From assembly GCA_030386295.1 (NCBI GenBank), contig JANQAO010000001.1:62001-126000 (forward strand): a stretch of 64,000 nucleotides of DNA. Reading direction: 5' to 3'. This stretch comes from Candidatus Persebacteraceae bacterium Df01. Lineage in GTDB: Bacteria; Pseudomonadota; Gammaproteobacteria; Tethybacterales; Persebacteraceae. The position numbers were made by a program, and so were the translations under genes. Shown one piece after another: positions 10,830-25,110 of the stretch; position 1 is the stretch's first letter, and each line of letters begins with the position of its first letter. Under the pieces are notes generated by a model, which was not told the origin of the DNA, ran no database searches, and was given only the letters and a program-made list of their open reading frames with translations.

Positions 10830-12838
10830 ATGCCAGACAATACTTTATTAAATTTTAAAAAACTACCGAGATTTGCCGAGATTTGCCCCGATGACGTCGG
10901 TGCTGCCGTTGACTCGGTGTTAACCGCCGCCGAACAAACTGCCGATGCCGTCGCCGATGAATCATCGCCGTCGTGGGAGACGGTTTGCGCACCGCTAGAA
11001 GCCGCCGATGAAGCCATTGCCCGCGTTTGGAATCAGGTAGAACACATGCATGCCGTTATGAGTACTCCGTCGTGGCGCGCCGCTTATCGCGATAATCTAG
11101 AAAAAATTTCGGCACACTCCGCCCGCATGGGACAGCATGAAGGCGTATACCAACAGCTGCAAACACTCACCCAATCGGAAACGCTTTCTCCTACACAAAA
11201 AAAAATCGTCGCTGACGCTTTACAGGATTTTCAATTATCCGGCATCGCTCTGGCAGATGAACAAAAAACAATATTTCGCCGGCACAGCGAAAAACTGTCG
11301 GCTTTGTCGGCAGCGTTTGTAGAACACCTGCTAGATGCCACCAACGATTATGCGTTGGATATAGCAAGCGAAGAAGACTTGGGCGACATGCCACCCGACC
11401 TCAAACAAGCGGCAGCACTGGCAGCAGGAGATAACAACAGCTTTCGCTTTACCTTACAACAGCCATCTTATGTGGCATTTATGCAGTATTCTCCCGCCCG
11501 TAAACAACGGCGCGAACTGTATTACGCCTACAATACCCGCGCCAGCGAATTTGGCAATGCCGCCCGCGACAATACACCGCTTGTCACCGAAATTTTAGAA
11601 TTGCGTGCCAAACAAGCATCTTTACTGGGGTTTGATGATTACGCCCACATGGCACTACAAACGCGAATGGCTGGTACTCCACATGAAGCGCTGGACTTTT
11701 TATATGATCTGGCGGCACGAGCGTATCCTGCTGCTGTTAAAGAATTAGAAGCCATGCGCGCCTTTGCCGCCACCGAGCTAGGCATTGATGATTTGCAGCC
11801 GTGGGACGTGGGTTTTGTTTCCGAACACATGTGCCGCCGCCAGTTTGATTTTTCAGATGCCGAGTTGCGCCCCTATTTGCGCGTCGACAAAGTATTAGAT
11901 GGATTATTTTCCTGTGCCGAAAAACTTTTTGGCGTTTGTGCGACAGCAGTGCCAACATCGCTGTGGCTACCAGAAGCACAATACTTCAAGCTGCACACCC
12001 GCAACGGTGAAGAAATCGGCGGTCTGTATCTTGATTTGTACGCGCGTGATACCAAACGTGGCGGTGCGTGGATGGCAGATGCCCTATCGCGTTGTCGTCG
12101 CTCGGGAACGCTGCAATTGCCAGTAGCACATGTTACGTGTAACTTCGCCCCACCAAAAGCCGGCTCACAAGCCTTACTCAACTGGGATGAAGCAGTAACG
12201 TTGTTTCACGAATTCGGTCACGCTCTGCATCATTTGTTAACTGAGGTAGAAGAATTTTCTGCCTCCGGCATTAGCGGTGTGGAATGGGATGCGGTAGAGC
12301 TACCAAGCCAATTTATGGAAAACTTCATTTGGGATTGGCGAGTGCTAGAACCGATGACAGCACACATAAAAAAACCGGTGAGCCAATGCCCAAAGCACTG
12401 TTTGACAAAGCACTGGCAGCACGCCAGTTTCAATCTGGCTTACGCTTGGTGCGACAATTAGAATTTGCGCTGTTTGATTTAAAACTACACAGCGGTACAC
12501 CACGCCCTTTTATGGCAGTGCTAAAAGAAGCACGCCAACAAACTGCCGTGTTGCCTGCGCCAGAATGGAATCGGTTTCCCTGTTGTTTTTCGCATATTTT
12601 TGCCGGCGGTTATGCGGCAGGCTATTATAGTTATCTGTGGGCGGAAGTGCTGGCAGCAGACGCTTTTGCTTTGTTTACAGAAAGTGGTGATGTATTAAAT
12701 GCCGAATTGGGTTCACGTTTTCGTCAAGAAGTGCTGGCGGTAGGCGGTTCTCGCCCGGCAATGCAGTCATTCACCGCCTTTCGCGGGCGAGTGCCAAAAC
12801 CGGCAGCCTTGTTGAAACATTATGGTTTGGTTGATTAA
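10830..12838 (+). pseudogene. prlC: Oligopeptidase A (M3 family), interrupted by a frameshift
   Basis: The M3 zinc oligopeptidase degrades short peptides, including cleaved signal peptides, in the cytoplasm. The first frame (10830-12461) holds the N-terminal helical part and the zinc site HEFGHALHH near residue 460. Homology then continues, without loss, in the frame one base back, starting at about 12371 with TGEPMPKALFDKALAARQFQ and running through FSHIFAGGYAAGYYSYLWA to the stop at 12838. The switch falls at a run of seven A (12368-12374); one extra A would restore a single product of normal length (about 669 residues). This may be a mutation, a sequence error, or slippage that still yields enzyme. 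A good ribosome site (AGGAAAG) precedes the start. Confidence 0.9.
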
Positions 12839-20393: not shown

Positions 20394-20454
20394 TTTTGTG
20401 CAAAAATTCACCTCTTACTAGTTGTCAATACTAAAAATTAACAAGGAAAGTTTT

Positions 20455-21714
20455 ATGCCTACCGGCACGCGCCCTAAAGTACTAATTGTTGATGATGAAC
20501 CGGGGATCCGGGAATTGCTCATGGAGATTCTCACCGATGAAGGCTATGCCGTAGTCATGGCTGAGAATGCTGCCGAAGCTTGGCAAATTCGCCTGGAACA
20601 ACAGTTGTCTCTGGTATTGCTGGATATTTGGATGCCAGGAAAAGACGGTTTAACCTTGCTCAAGCAGTGGAAAGATGCGGGACTTGCCGACATGCCGATT
20701 ATTGTCATGTCCGGTCACGCTACTATTGACACCGCCGTAGAAGCGGTCAAACTCGGAGCACTGGAAGTTTTAGAAAAACCTATTGCCACTAATCGCCTGC
20801 TAGTAGCAATGCAAAATGCTCTTGATGCCAGCAATAATGAGCGCGGCAATCCCAACATCATTCGCACCAATTTTGGCAAATCGGCAATCATCCAAAAATT
20901 CAAACAACAATTGCTGGATGCTTCGGCTGGCTCACAGCCGGCACTGCTTGTTGGCACGCCCAGTTCTGGTGCCTCATTTTTTGCGCAGTTGCTAGCCAAG
21001 CCAAAAATGCCCGTCGTATTTTTGGATAATTCCACACAACTGGAAGGCGCTATAGAAAATATTTTACGCGAAGCCAACGGCGGCATTCTTGTAATCCGTT
21101 TGATAGACATGCTCAATTCAATTCAGCAAAGTGGGCTGCTGGCACTGGTACGTGAATCTGGACGTATGAACGTTCGACTCATCGCAGCCGCTGTGAATCC
21201 GCCAGAAAAGTTAAAAACCGATAGAGGTTACAATAAAGCACTGCTTAACTCTTTTTCCAATCACGTTATTACCATGCCGTCTTTGACGCAATATATTGAG
21301 GACATTCCTTATATTGTTGACATTATCACCCGGCAATTGACTGAGCAAACTGACATGGTAGGACGCAGACTTTCACCGCAAGCAGTAAATCTACTCACTC
21401 AACACGACTATGAAAATGATTTCATGGAATTATTGTCTTTGGTACGCAGCGCCCTGATGTACGCTTCGGGTGATAAAGTAGACGCTGCCACCATGCAGGT
21501 TATTATTGAACAATTTTCGCTCAATTCCTCACTCAAAGGCGTGCGCAGCGAGATTTTTTCTATGTCCATGCGGGAAGCACGAATGTGCTTTGAGCGCGAA
21601 TACCTACGCCGCATCATGCACGCAACACGAGGTAATATCCAACAAGCAGCAGAAATTGCCGGCATAGAACGCACCTATCTGTATCGCAAGCTCAAACAAC
21701 ATAAGGAAGTTTAA
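20455..21714 (+). CDS. NtrC/NtrX-type response regulator with degenerate AAA+ domain
   Basis: This 419-residue protein has a receiver domain at 1-120 with the acidic pair D13-D14, the phospho-acceptor D57 in LLDIWMPGKDG and K108, so phosphorylation is likely. The middle region aligns with a sigma-54 AAA+ domain, but the Walker A site is replaced by LLVGTPSSGASFFAQ (164-178) without the GK[ST] core, and no GAFTGA loop is seen. The C-terminus is a Fis-type helix-turn-helix (RGNIQQAAEIAGIERTYLYR). It is therefore probably a DNA-binding regulator that does not work as a sigma-54 ATPase, much like divergent NtrX proteins. ATG at 20455 has AAGGAAAG upstream. No kinase gene is adjacent. Confidence 0.85.
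   Translation: MPTGTRPKVLIVDDEPGIRELLMEILTDEGYAVVMAENAAEAWQIRLEQQLSLVLLDIWMPGKDGLTLLKQWKDAGLADMPIIVMSGHATIDTAVEAVKLGALEVLEKPIATNRLLVAMQNALDASNNERGNPNIIRTNFGKSAIIQKFKQQLLDASAGSQPALLVGTPSSGASFFAQLLAKPKMPVVFLDNSTQLEGAIENILREANGGILVIRLIDMLNSIQQSGLLALVRESGRMNVRLIAAAVNPPEKLKTDRGYNKALLNSFSNHVITMPSLTQYIEDIPYIVDIITRQLTEQTDMVGRRLSPQAVNLLTQHDYENDFMELLSLVRSALMYASGDKVDAATMQVIIEQFSLNSSLKGVRSEIFSMSMREARMCFEREYLRRIMHATRGNIQQAAEIAGIERTYLYRKLKQHKEV
21703..21709 (+). promoter_or_regulatory. Shine-Dalgarno placing the mfd start at an ATC codon
   Basis: AAGGAAG lies within the last codons of the regulator gene and ends five bases before the ATC at 21715. No other start codon in the mfd frame is within reach. It is the main evidence for translation starting at that ATC or at an ATG since altered. 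Confidence 0.6.
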
Positions 21715-24700
21715 ATCCTCAACCAACGCGCACTTTCATCCGCCGCCTCATTACCGTCGTTTCCAGCCACCGGCAAACGCCACCGCATTAACGGCTTACG
21801 CGGTGCCGGAGAATCCCTAGCGCTAGCGGAATTAGCGACACACAACAATCGCCAAATATTGTTGCTGACACGCGATTCCATCAGCGCCGCACACACAGTA
21901 GAAGAATTAGCTTTTTTTGCGCCAACGCTACCAGCGCGCCTGCTTCCTGACTGGGGATGTCTGCCTTATGACCGAGTATCACCGACAGCGGACACGGCTG
22001 GTGCCCGCCTAGCCGCATTAGCGGCGCTGCATGAAAGTCCACGCGGCATCATCGTGGCGGCGGCAACAACCATGCTGCTGCCCTGCCCACCGCCAGCATT
22101 TGTTCTTGCCCGCACTTTTAATCTGCAAGTAGGCGCTCGTCTGGATATATCATCCTTAATTCGGAATCTGACGCAAAATGGTTATGCCCGTGCAGATCGA
22201 GTGCTGGCAGCAGGAGAGTTTGCTGTGTACGGTGGTCAGTTAGATATTTTCCCTCCCGACTCAGAAACCCCATTTCGTTTGGTTTTGTTGGATGACGAAA
22301 TTGAACAAATTCGCTTGTTTGACCCGCAAACACAACGTTCCACCGGAAAAACCGACACTATCCGAATATTACCTTCCGGTGAATGCGATTTGTCGGCGGC
22401 AGGCGTATCGCGCTTTCGCGAGGCTTATGTCAAACACTTTGGTGCCACAAAAAGCCCAATATATGAACACGTCAGCAACGGTGAACGAGCGCCAGGAATA
22501 GAATTCATGCTGCCGCTTTTTTTTGACAATACCGCCACTGCTTTAGATTATCCCTCTGCCAACACCGGTATCGTATTACACCACGACTGTCACACAGCGA
22601 TAGAACGTTTTATGCATCAAGCAAGGCGGCGGCAAAAATTGGCTAGCGTATATGAAAACCGTACGGTGTTACCAGTTAAAGAAGTTTTTGTGAGTCCAGA
22701 AGATTTCTATGCCGCCTTGCGCTGCTTTTCCGTACTGGAAATTAATAACGACAGTGAAAATTTACAAGCACCGCCGCCAGTAGCGATCAATCACCGTCGT
22801 GCCGATTCGCACACACCGCTAATTAATTTCCTCCGCGAAAGCAAGCAACAAGTCATTATTGCCACTGACAGCGAAGGACGGCGACAGACGTTACAGGCAG
22901 CACTCACCGACAGCGATTTGCGTCTGCGAGTGGCAGATTCTTTTTCCGACTGCCGCCCCGAAGACATTTCGCTAGTCACGGCGCCACTGCGCGGTGGTTT
23001 TATGGATACCGATCGTCTATGTGTGCTTACCGAAGCGGAAGTGTTTGATGTACGTCCACCACCTCGTGCCATTCGTCAACAAGCACGCGACGTCATTCAC
23101 GTCGGCGAGCTGACCGTCAATGGCATGGTTGTCCATCGTGATTACGGCGTTGGTCGCTATCTGGGGTTAACGCAAAAAACCATCGGCAACGTAACAGAAG
23201 AATTTTTAGAAATTGAATATGCCGACAGTCAGCGATTGTGGCTACCAGTACCGCAATTAAATTTGTTATCGCCACACCACGGCGAAATAACTGCATTGTC
23301 CAAACTCGGTAGCAATGGCTGGAAACGCGCCCGCGCCAAAGCAGAAAAAAATGCCCGCGATACGGCAGCACGATTATTAGAAATTCACGCCCGCCGTGCC
23401 GCCAAAGACGGTAATGTTCATGCTCCTGATGAACAAGCGTTAGCACGCTTTGCCGATGGTTTTAATTACGAAGAAACGCCTGATCAAGCAAAAGCCGTAC
23501 GCGAAGTGCTGGAAGATATGCGAGCAGAAAAAACCATGGACCGGCTCGTCGCTGCCGATGTGGGCTTCGGCAAAACCGAAGTCGCCATGCGTGCCGCTTG
23601 TGCCTGCGCTCTTTCGGGAGGACAAACGGCAGTATTAGCACCTACCACTTTGCTCGCCGAGCAACATGCTCGCACTTTCACTGACCGGTTTTCTGGCTTT
23701 CCTGTACGCATCGCCTCGCTCACACGACTTGCTGGTAGCTCCGAAAAAAAAACACTGCTGCATGACATTGCCGATGGTAGCATCAATATTGTCATCGGCA
23801 CCCACGCATTGTTATCGCCGGCAGTAAATTTTCACCAGCTCAATCTGGTGGTCATTGATGAAGAGCACCGTTTTGGCGTGCGGCAAAAGGAGCATTTCAA
23901 AGCGCTACGCGCTGATGTAGATATTTTGTCGCTGTCGGCAACGCCGATACCACGCACTATGGCGATGGCGATGGATGGGTTGCGGGATATTTCCATTATT
24001 ACCACACCGCCACCATCGCGACTAACGGTGCACACCACAGTGGCACCTTTTTCACACGGGCTTATTGTAGACGCCTGCGAACGCGAATTATTTCGTGGCG
24101 GGCAAATTTATTTCGTCCACAACGAAATTCGTACCTTGTCCGGTATTGCTGACCAACTACGGGAATGGTTACCCGAAGCGCGGCTGGTGATAGCACACGG
24201 CAGCATGGGCGGACTCGCAATGGAACAGGCAATGCGGCGTTTTTTGCGACACGAATCCGATATTTTGCTATGTACTACTATTGTAGAAAGTGGTTTGGAC
24301 ATTGCCAACGCTAACACTATCATCATCAACCGTGCCGACCGTATGGGTTTGTCTCGGCTGCACCAATTGCGCGGGCGCGTGGGACGCGGTGGCGCGCAGG
24401 CTTATGCACTGCTGCTGACTCCACCCGAAGGTGCCGCCACAAAGCAAGGAGATGCACGACTGGAAGCTTTGACGCAATATGAGTCATTAGGCGGCGGATT
24501 TTTTATCGCCATGCGCGATTTGGAAATTCGTGGTGCCGGTGAAATATTGGGTGAGCGGCAGAGTGGAGACATTAACGCCGTAGGCTGCTCTATGTATCAA
24601 AAAATGGTTAACGACGCCGTACGTCAACTACGCGGTGATGAAATCGCTGTTCATATTGATTCCGTTATTGACCTCAATACGTCGGCATTGTTGCCACCAG

Positions 24701-25110
24701 ATTATGTCCGCTCACCGCATGAGCGCTTGCGTTACTATCACCGGCTGTCTAATTGCGAAAACCTAGCGGCAATTAATGATGTGCAGCTGGAATGGGAAGA
24801 CCGTTTTGGCATCGCCCCACCACCAGCACGGCGGCTTATTACCTGTCACCGTCTGCGCCTATTGGCGGGAGCAGTAGAAATCACGCGTCTGCAAGTAATG
24901 CGCGAGAAAACAGCACGATTGGAATTTGCTGACAATCCACGCTGCCTTAATCAATTAATGGCCAAAATCGCTGCTAAAGAATGCCGCCTAGCAACAGATA
25001 GTAAATCCGTTATTATTGAAAATTTAAATGTTGAACCCGATGAACGGGCAATACAACTGGCGGATTTTTTGCGTGATTTATCAACCACTCACACAATAAA
25101 AAATAAATAA
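21715..25110 (+). CDS. mfd: Transcription-repair coupling factor, with ATC in the start position
   Basis: Mfd removes RNA polymerase stalled at DNA damage and recruits UvrA. The product (1,131 residues if read from 21715) has the UvrB-like N-terminus, the RNA-polymerase-interacting domain with VHRDYGVGRYLGLTQKT, a RecG-like helicase with Walker A ADVGFGKTE near residue 613 and DEEHRFG near 714, LSATPIPRTM and HQLRGRVGRGG. The first ordinary start in frame is a TTG at 21859, but family-like sequence (INGLRGAGESLALAELA) extends upstream to the stop of the preceding gene, with no ATG, GTG or TTG. AAGGAAG at 21703-21709 sits five bases before an ATC at 21715, so ATC is the likely or mutated start. 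Confidence 0.93.
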   Translation: MLNQRALSSAASLPSFPATGKRHRINGLRGAGESLALAELATHNNRQILLLTRDSISAAHTVEELAFFAPTLPARLLPDWGCLPYDRVSPTADTAGARLAALAALHESPRGIIVAAATTMLLPCPPPAFVLARTFNLQVGARLDISSLIRNLTQNGYARADRVLAAGEFAVYGGQLDIFPPDSETPFRLVLLDDEIEQIRLFDPQTQRSTGKTDTIRILPSGECDLSAAGVSRFREAYVKHFGATKSPIYEHVSNGERAPGIEFMLPLFFDNTATALDYPSANTGIVLHHDCHTAIERFMHQARRRQKLASVYENRTVLPVKEVFVSPEDFYAALRCFSVLEINNDSENLQAPPPVAINHRRADSHTPLINFLRESKQQVIIATDSEGRRQTLQAALTDSDLRLRVADSFSDCRPEDISLVTAPLRGGFMDTDRLCVLTEAEVFDVRPPPRAIRQQARDVIHVGELTVNGMVVHRDYGVGRYLGLTQKTIGNVTEEFLEIEYADSQRLWLPVPQLNLLSPHHGEITALSKLGSNGWKRARAKAEKNARDTAARLLEIHARRAAKDGNVHAPDEQALARFADGFNYEETPDQAKAVREVLEDMRAEKTMDRLVAADVGFGKTEVAMRAACACALSGGQTAVLAPTTLLAEQHARTFTDRFSGFPVRIASLTRLAGSSEKKTLLHDIADGSINIVIGTHALLSPAVNFHQLNLVVIDEEHRFGVRQKEHFKALRADVDILSLSATPIPRTMAMAMDGLRDISIITTPPPSRLTVHTTVAPFSHGLIVDACERELFRGGQIYFVHNEIRTLSGIADQLREWLPEARLVIAHGSMGGLAMEQAMRRFLRHESDILLCTTIVESGLDIANANTIIINRADRMGLSRLHQLRGRVGRGGAQAYALLLTPPEGAATKQGDARLEALTQYESLGGGFFIAMRDLEIRGAGEILGERQSGDINAVGCSMYQKMVNDAVRQLRGDEIAVHIDSVIDLNTSALLPPDYVRSPHERLRYYHRLSNCENLAAINDVQLEWEDRFGIAPPPARRLITCHRLRLLAGAVEITRLQVMREKTARLEFADNPRCLNQLMAKIAAKECRLATDSKSVIIENLNVEPDERAIQLADFLRDLSTTHTIKNK

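Follow-up and report, generated by a model that had tools for sequence, protein, structure and literature searches.

The mfd gene in the 64,000-nucleotide stretch of DNA analysed here (the window) has an intact reading frame and no canonical start codon ahead of its conserved N-terminus. On balance, its translation appears to begin at the near-cognate codon AUC at position 21715, behind an AAGGAA element in the end of an ntrX-like gene, and mfd is a probable new case of a known but rare type of start. The frame spans 21715–25110 on the forward strand and is stop-free throughout its 1131 codons, which are followed by TAA. It opens with ATC at 21715–21717, and a frame listed with the full set of starts in NCBI table 11, which includes ATC, begins at this same codon. 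No in-frame ATG, GTG or TTG is found between 21715 and 21858, and the first canonical start is the TTG at 21859–21861 (codon 49), followed by a second TTG at 21862. The sequence-only reading had placed an AAGGAAG at 21703–21709, the upstream stop at 21714, ATC at 21715 and the first TTG at 21859, with no canonical start between the last two, and all of this is confirmed. The product, the transcription-repair coupling factor, exceeds the TIGR00580 equivalog cut-off (898.2 vs 800 bits), while a second model, NF007966, scores 861.9 bits and stays under its own cut-off of 1329. Its Pfam domains (UvrB_inter, MFD_D3, CarD_TRCF_RID, DEAD, Helicase_C and TRCF) follow the order expected for Mfd, namely UvrB-like D1/D2, D3, RID, the helicase domains and TRCF. 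The N-terminus of domain 1 is complete in the frame, and would be complete in the protein only if translation starts before residue 19.

Residues 19–48 of the 48-codon leader (21769–21858, forward strand), which a TTG start would remove, are clearly coding and conserved. In phmmer searches at E<0.01, residues 1–48 pick up the N-termini of 15 of the 73 orthologues; neither of the other two frames picks up any, and none of 50 shuffled controls picks up more than one. The leader has a codon score of 6.3, where 48-codon pieces within genes have a median of 7.5; only 0.4% of wrong-frame pieces attain the score of the leader, which is located in codons 19–48 (6.31) and not in codons 1–18 (−0.01). 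Residues 19–256 align with residues 13–251 of E. coli Mfd, the segment 25–41 reads INGLRGAGESLALAELA, and near-invariant alignment columns ahead of the TTG include L28, G30, S31, L35 and A38. An AlphaFold model of residues 1–230, built from 43 sequences (that of the window and 42 of 51 eligible sequences), predicts a helix at 32–42 and a strand at 47–52, with block pLDDT values of 84–91 over residues 21–50 and below 50 for residues 1–9, and its best structural matches are the E. coli Mfd structures 2b2n and 2eyq. Initiation at the TTG, residue 49, would remove exactly 48 codons and, according to the model, delete this helix together with the first part of the strand.

The first 18 residues behave differently, matching none of the 73 orthologue N-termini at E<0.01. 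As they carry neither homology nor coding signal, the earlier estimate that a TTG start would cost about 48 conserved residues is correct for the number of codons and comes down to about 30 for the conserved part. The combination of absent homology, a codon score near zero and low model confidence in residues 1–18 also weakens the case for 21715 as the exact start. A frameshift in place of a missing start is ruled out by the stops and starts of the other frames between 21600 and 21862: in frame +1, the TTG at 21656 and the GTG at 21803 run into TAG codons at 21665 and 21818, respectively, within 15 bases, and no start codon is found in frame +2.

Comparison with orthologues places the canonical start well upstream of the TTG position in 72 of 73 sequences, including the two from the same family, which both use ATG; the alignment proposed in the sequence-only reading as a check on an upstream start thus supports one. 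Measured from an anchor glycine, residue 30 in the window, these 72 have a canonical start 18–42 residues ahead, 61 of them at 21–29; start-like codons are common and some are expected by chance, such that the tight 21–29 cluster is the informative part. The remaining orthologue (L081) has no canonical start in range, and the ATC at 21715 sits 30 residues ahead of the anchor. The 73 sequences were kept from loci L001–L098, leaving out the copies from the same genome (L001, L002 and L098), duplicates (L003 and L004), L066, whose available sequence contains no upstream stop, loci stored in the minus orientation and loci that did not match the first 260 residues. The same-family orthologues, with roughly 45–53% identity to the mfd product over the N-terminal part, begin at ATG 28 (G002) and 21 (G001) residues before the anchor. 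The near-cognate start is therefore not conserved in these two orthologues, which counts against AUC initiation; conservation in relatives supports a near-cognate start and is not a requirement for one.

The gene immediately upstream encodes an ntrX-like response regulator (20455–21714, forward strand) whose TAA at 21712–21714 is the codon right before the ATC, such that the two genes share a reading frame with only this stop between them. Its product matches Pfam Response_reg, Sigma54_activ_2 and HTH_8, the matches reaching residue 415 of 419, and NtrX is its best NCBIfam match at 205.8 bits. This is far under the cut-off of 600, the central match is to Sigma54_activ_2 instead of the standard sigma-54 domain, and the nucleotide-binding loop reads GTPSSGASF; a regulator with such a loop may have lost its ATPase function.

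The last codons of the ntrX-like gene contain the Shine-Dalgarno-like AAGGAAG (21703–21709, forward strand), which pairs with the 3′ end of the genome's own 16S rRNA (GGATCACCTCCTTT) in a predicted duplex of −4.9 kcal/mol. A gap of six bases separates AAGGAA from the ATC, identical to the spacing at the start of the ntrX-like gene itself, where AAGGAA, six bases and ATG occupy 20443–20457 (forward strand, also −4.9 kcal/mol). Codons one base off ATG occur in the leader at positions 1 (ATC), 25 (ATT, 21787) and 48 (ATA), which makes the ATC the only one among the first 24 codons and, as the sole near-cognate codon ahead of the conserved part, the best start candidate. In about half of 257 scored genes, the Shine-Dalgarno at the best start equals or exceeds that of mfd in strength. 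Equally strong matches occur at 16% of 3884 random in-gene positions (9% at gaps of 4–9), and 1304 of 15713 random 12-codon stretches (8.3%) contain an ATH codon paired with a Shine-Dalgarno of this strength, so that chance is exceeded only weakly at the ATC. The Shine-Dalgarno argument of the sequence-only reading consequently holds with respect to the start-like spacing of AAGGAA and is weaker than it looks, at a chance level of 8–16%. The lack of a closer replacement start is slightly unusual and not striking, with 334 of 14548 draws of 48 in-gene codons (2.3%) lacking ATG, GTG and TTG. No Shine-Dalgarno is found at the TTG at 21859, and the mRNA structure around the mfd start is unremarkable (−4.3 kcal/mol, z-score 1.23).

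A screen of 384 kb of contig C1 (25% of the genome) ranked 323 predicted genes by codon score, taken over the open sequence that precedes the first canonical start, a measure that overlooks genes whose true start is closely followed by a canonical codon. The mfd gene ranks first of the 323 for coding-like sequence without a start, a signal exceeding chance; among the 22 genes with at least 25 such codons, mfd is followed by scores of 5.1 and 2.9, the rest do not exceed 0.3, and no second case as strong was found among the 323 genes in these 384 kb. The runner-up, an H+-pyrophosphatase (score 5.1, 27 codons), was rejected, as its Pfam match starts at residue 45 and lies wholly after the canonical start.

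As a positive control, the infC gene of the same genome (L101, contig C2) begins ATA GAA AAC behind AAGGAGG; six open upstream codons contain no canonical start and the first downstream one lies at residue 16. The infC gene of the same-family G002 (L100) has the same ATA behind AAGGAGG, with a canonical start absent within reach. Judged from infC, near-cognate initiation is very likely used in this genome. In the infC region of G003 (L102), ATC ATC is found near GGAG just ahead of the conserved IF3 N-terminus, suggesting a possible ATC start.

Elsewhere in the window, an M3-family oligopeptidase (PrlC-like) is split over overlapping forward-strand frames at 10830–12461 and 12284–12838, with Pfam Peptidase_M3 matches at 1–324 and 295–457 and a frame change near an A7 run at 12368–12374. 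The gene is unbroken in a single frame in relatives (681 codons in G002, 677 in G004 and 704 in G003), and the break could represent a consensus error, a pseudogene or slippage at the A7 run. Decay, slippage or consensus errors thus occur in the window, and this is counted against the AUC start.

The sequence-only reading had left open whether mfd starts at ATC or has lost its ATG. The absence of a canonical start and the standing of the ATC as best candidate are upheld, and an ATC start, a consensus error and a recent loss of ATG are inseparable by comparison because the closest relative has only about 50% protein identity. An error in the consensus or assembly, in which the ATC at 21715 would be confined to the stored sequence and the living organism would carry ATG there, is the most serious competitor, although still unlikely. 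The rest of the mfd site resembles an ordinary start, and the broken oligopeptidase, whole in G002, G003 and G004, could itself be a consensus error. Changes from AUG to AUC are also reported to be very rare in evolution, with switches from 61,358 ancestral AUGs given as 363 to GUG, 113 to UUG, two to CUG and one to AUU, and none listed to AUC (PMC5622118). The missing AUC switches may reflect annotation, which seldom calls AUC. Against an error, the assembly is contiguous (five contigs for a genome of 1.53 Mb) with no N within 384 kb, the oligopeptidase break is of the homopolymer type whereas the mfd case would be a substitution, and infC points to true near-cognate starts in this genome.

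A real loss of the ATG, leaving Mfd function lost or strongly reduced and a decaying or truncated product made from the TTG at 21859, is improbable. The small genome and the second broken gene in the window would fit such decay, and the TTG is the next canonical start. The frame nevertheless remains open and unbroken for another 1083 codons and yields a match above the equivalog cut-off. The TTG, apart from its missing Shine-Dalgarno, lies inside the first predicted strand and after the first helix, and the upstream position of the canonical start in nearly all orthologues argues against its use. Initiation elsewhere in the leader, for example at the ATT of residue 25 (21787) or at an unlisted codon, is more doubtful still: it would account for the lack of coding signal in residues 1–18, and the ATT is the next in-frame near-cognate codon, but it has no Shine-Dalgarno (−1.7 kcal/mol at a gap of 12) and would cut residues 19–24, which align with E. 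coli Mfd. Readthrough of the UAA at 21712 into an NtrX-Mfd fusion, suggested by the direct adjoining of the two genes in a common frame, is very hard to credit, as a common frame has a one in three chance of arising, the upstream protein has a normal end, its helix-turn-helix stopping four residues short of the C-terminus, ntrX is not found upstream of mfd at either same-family locus, and a UAA stop with a following A is not known to be leaky.

Under the favored AUC start, the AAGGAA Shine-Dalgarno within the end of the ntrX-like gene would place the ribosome at the AUC right after the UAA. Mfd synthesis would then be started either by ribosomes that have completed ntrX or by 30S subunits recruited to the same Shine-Dalgarno, with formyl-methionine delivered by formyl-methionyl initiator tRNA at the AUC; coupling to ntrX is suggested since the AUC directly follows the ntrX stop. 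Initiation at AUC would be inefficient and open to rejection by IF3, resulting in a low level of Mfd. For mfd, we infer AUC use, low yield and control through IF3 and ntrX coupling alike from the arrangement of the site and from other systems. With one reporter leader in E. coli, AUC, AUU, AUA and CUG are reported to give 0.1–0.3% of AUG activity, whereas values of 5–20% are given for near-cognate AUU, AUA, CUG and AUC in Clostridium butyricum and C. sporogenes (PMC9680021). IF3 is described as a repressor of non-canonical starts (PMC5472188), and raised IF3 in E. coli is reported to inhibit non-canonical initiation as well as re-initiation without a Shine-Dalgarno (PMC2268962).

The closest parallel is infC, a protein-coding gene in which, as proposed for mfd, a Shine-Dalgarno precedes a non-AUG start codon of the AUN type. 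It differs in being self-regulated via IF3, with no feedback known for mfd, and in a near-cognate start that recurs in many bacteria, whereas the same-family mfd orthologues use ATG. In E. coli, mfd starts at ATG, and the Mfd protein has the same domains as the product described here, with the aligned N-terminal residues and predicted fold noted above. The rarity of AUC and AUU starts and the status of infC as a known case, as put forward in the sequence-only reading, agree with reports that infC begins at ATT in E. coli, at ATC in Streptomyces (both PMC5472188) and, from peptides, at ATT in Xanthomonas (PMC5559785). The sigR gene of Streptomyces provides an example of a non-canonical start outside infC, with an IF3-repressed GTC (PMC5472188). 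It differs from mfd in its codon and in being experimentally proven in Streptomyces, while the mfd case is known from a single genome sequence. A title-level search of the literature on Mfd and start codons found no paper titled on the subject.

Genes with near-cognate starts get skipped or shortened by gene finders, and one restricted to ATG, GTG and TTG would yield an Mfd without the first helix of domain 1. A throttled mfd start, at which the AUC is read mainly by ribosomes ending ntrX and an IF3 veto keeps Mfd, the motor that removes RNA polymerase, scarce, is a speculative and rather unlikely extension drawn by analogy; if true, it would link transcription-coupled repair to the condition of the translation machinery, a role that GTC initiation plays for sigR in Streptomyces. 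Use of the AUC would place mfd beside infC and sigR among genes with potentially IF3-dependent levels.
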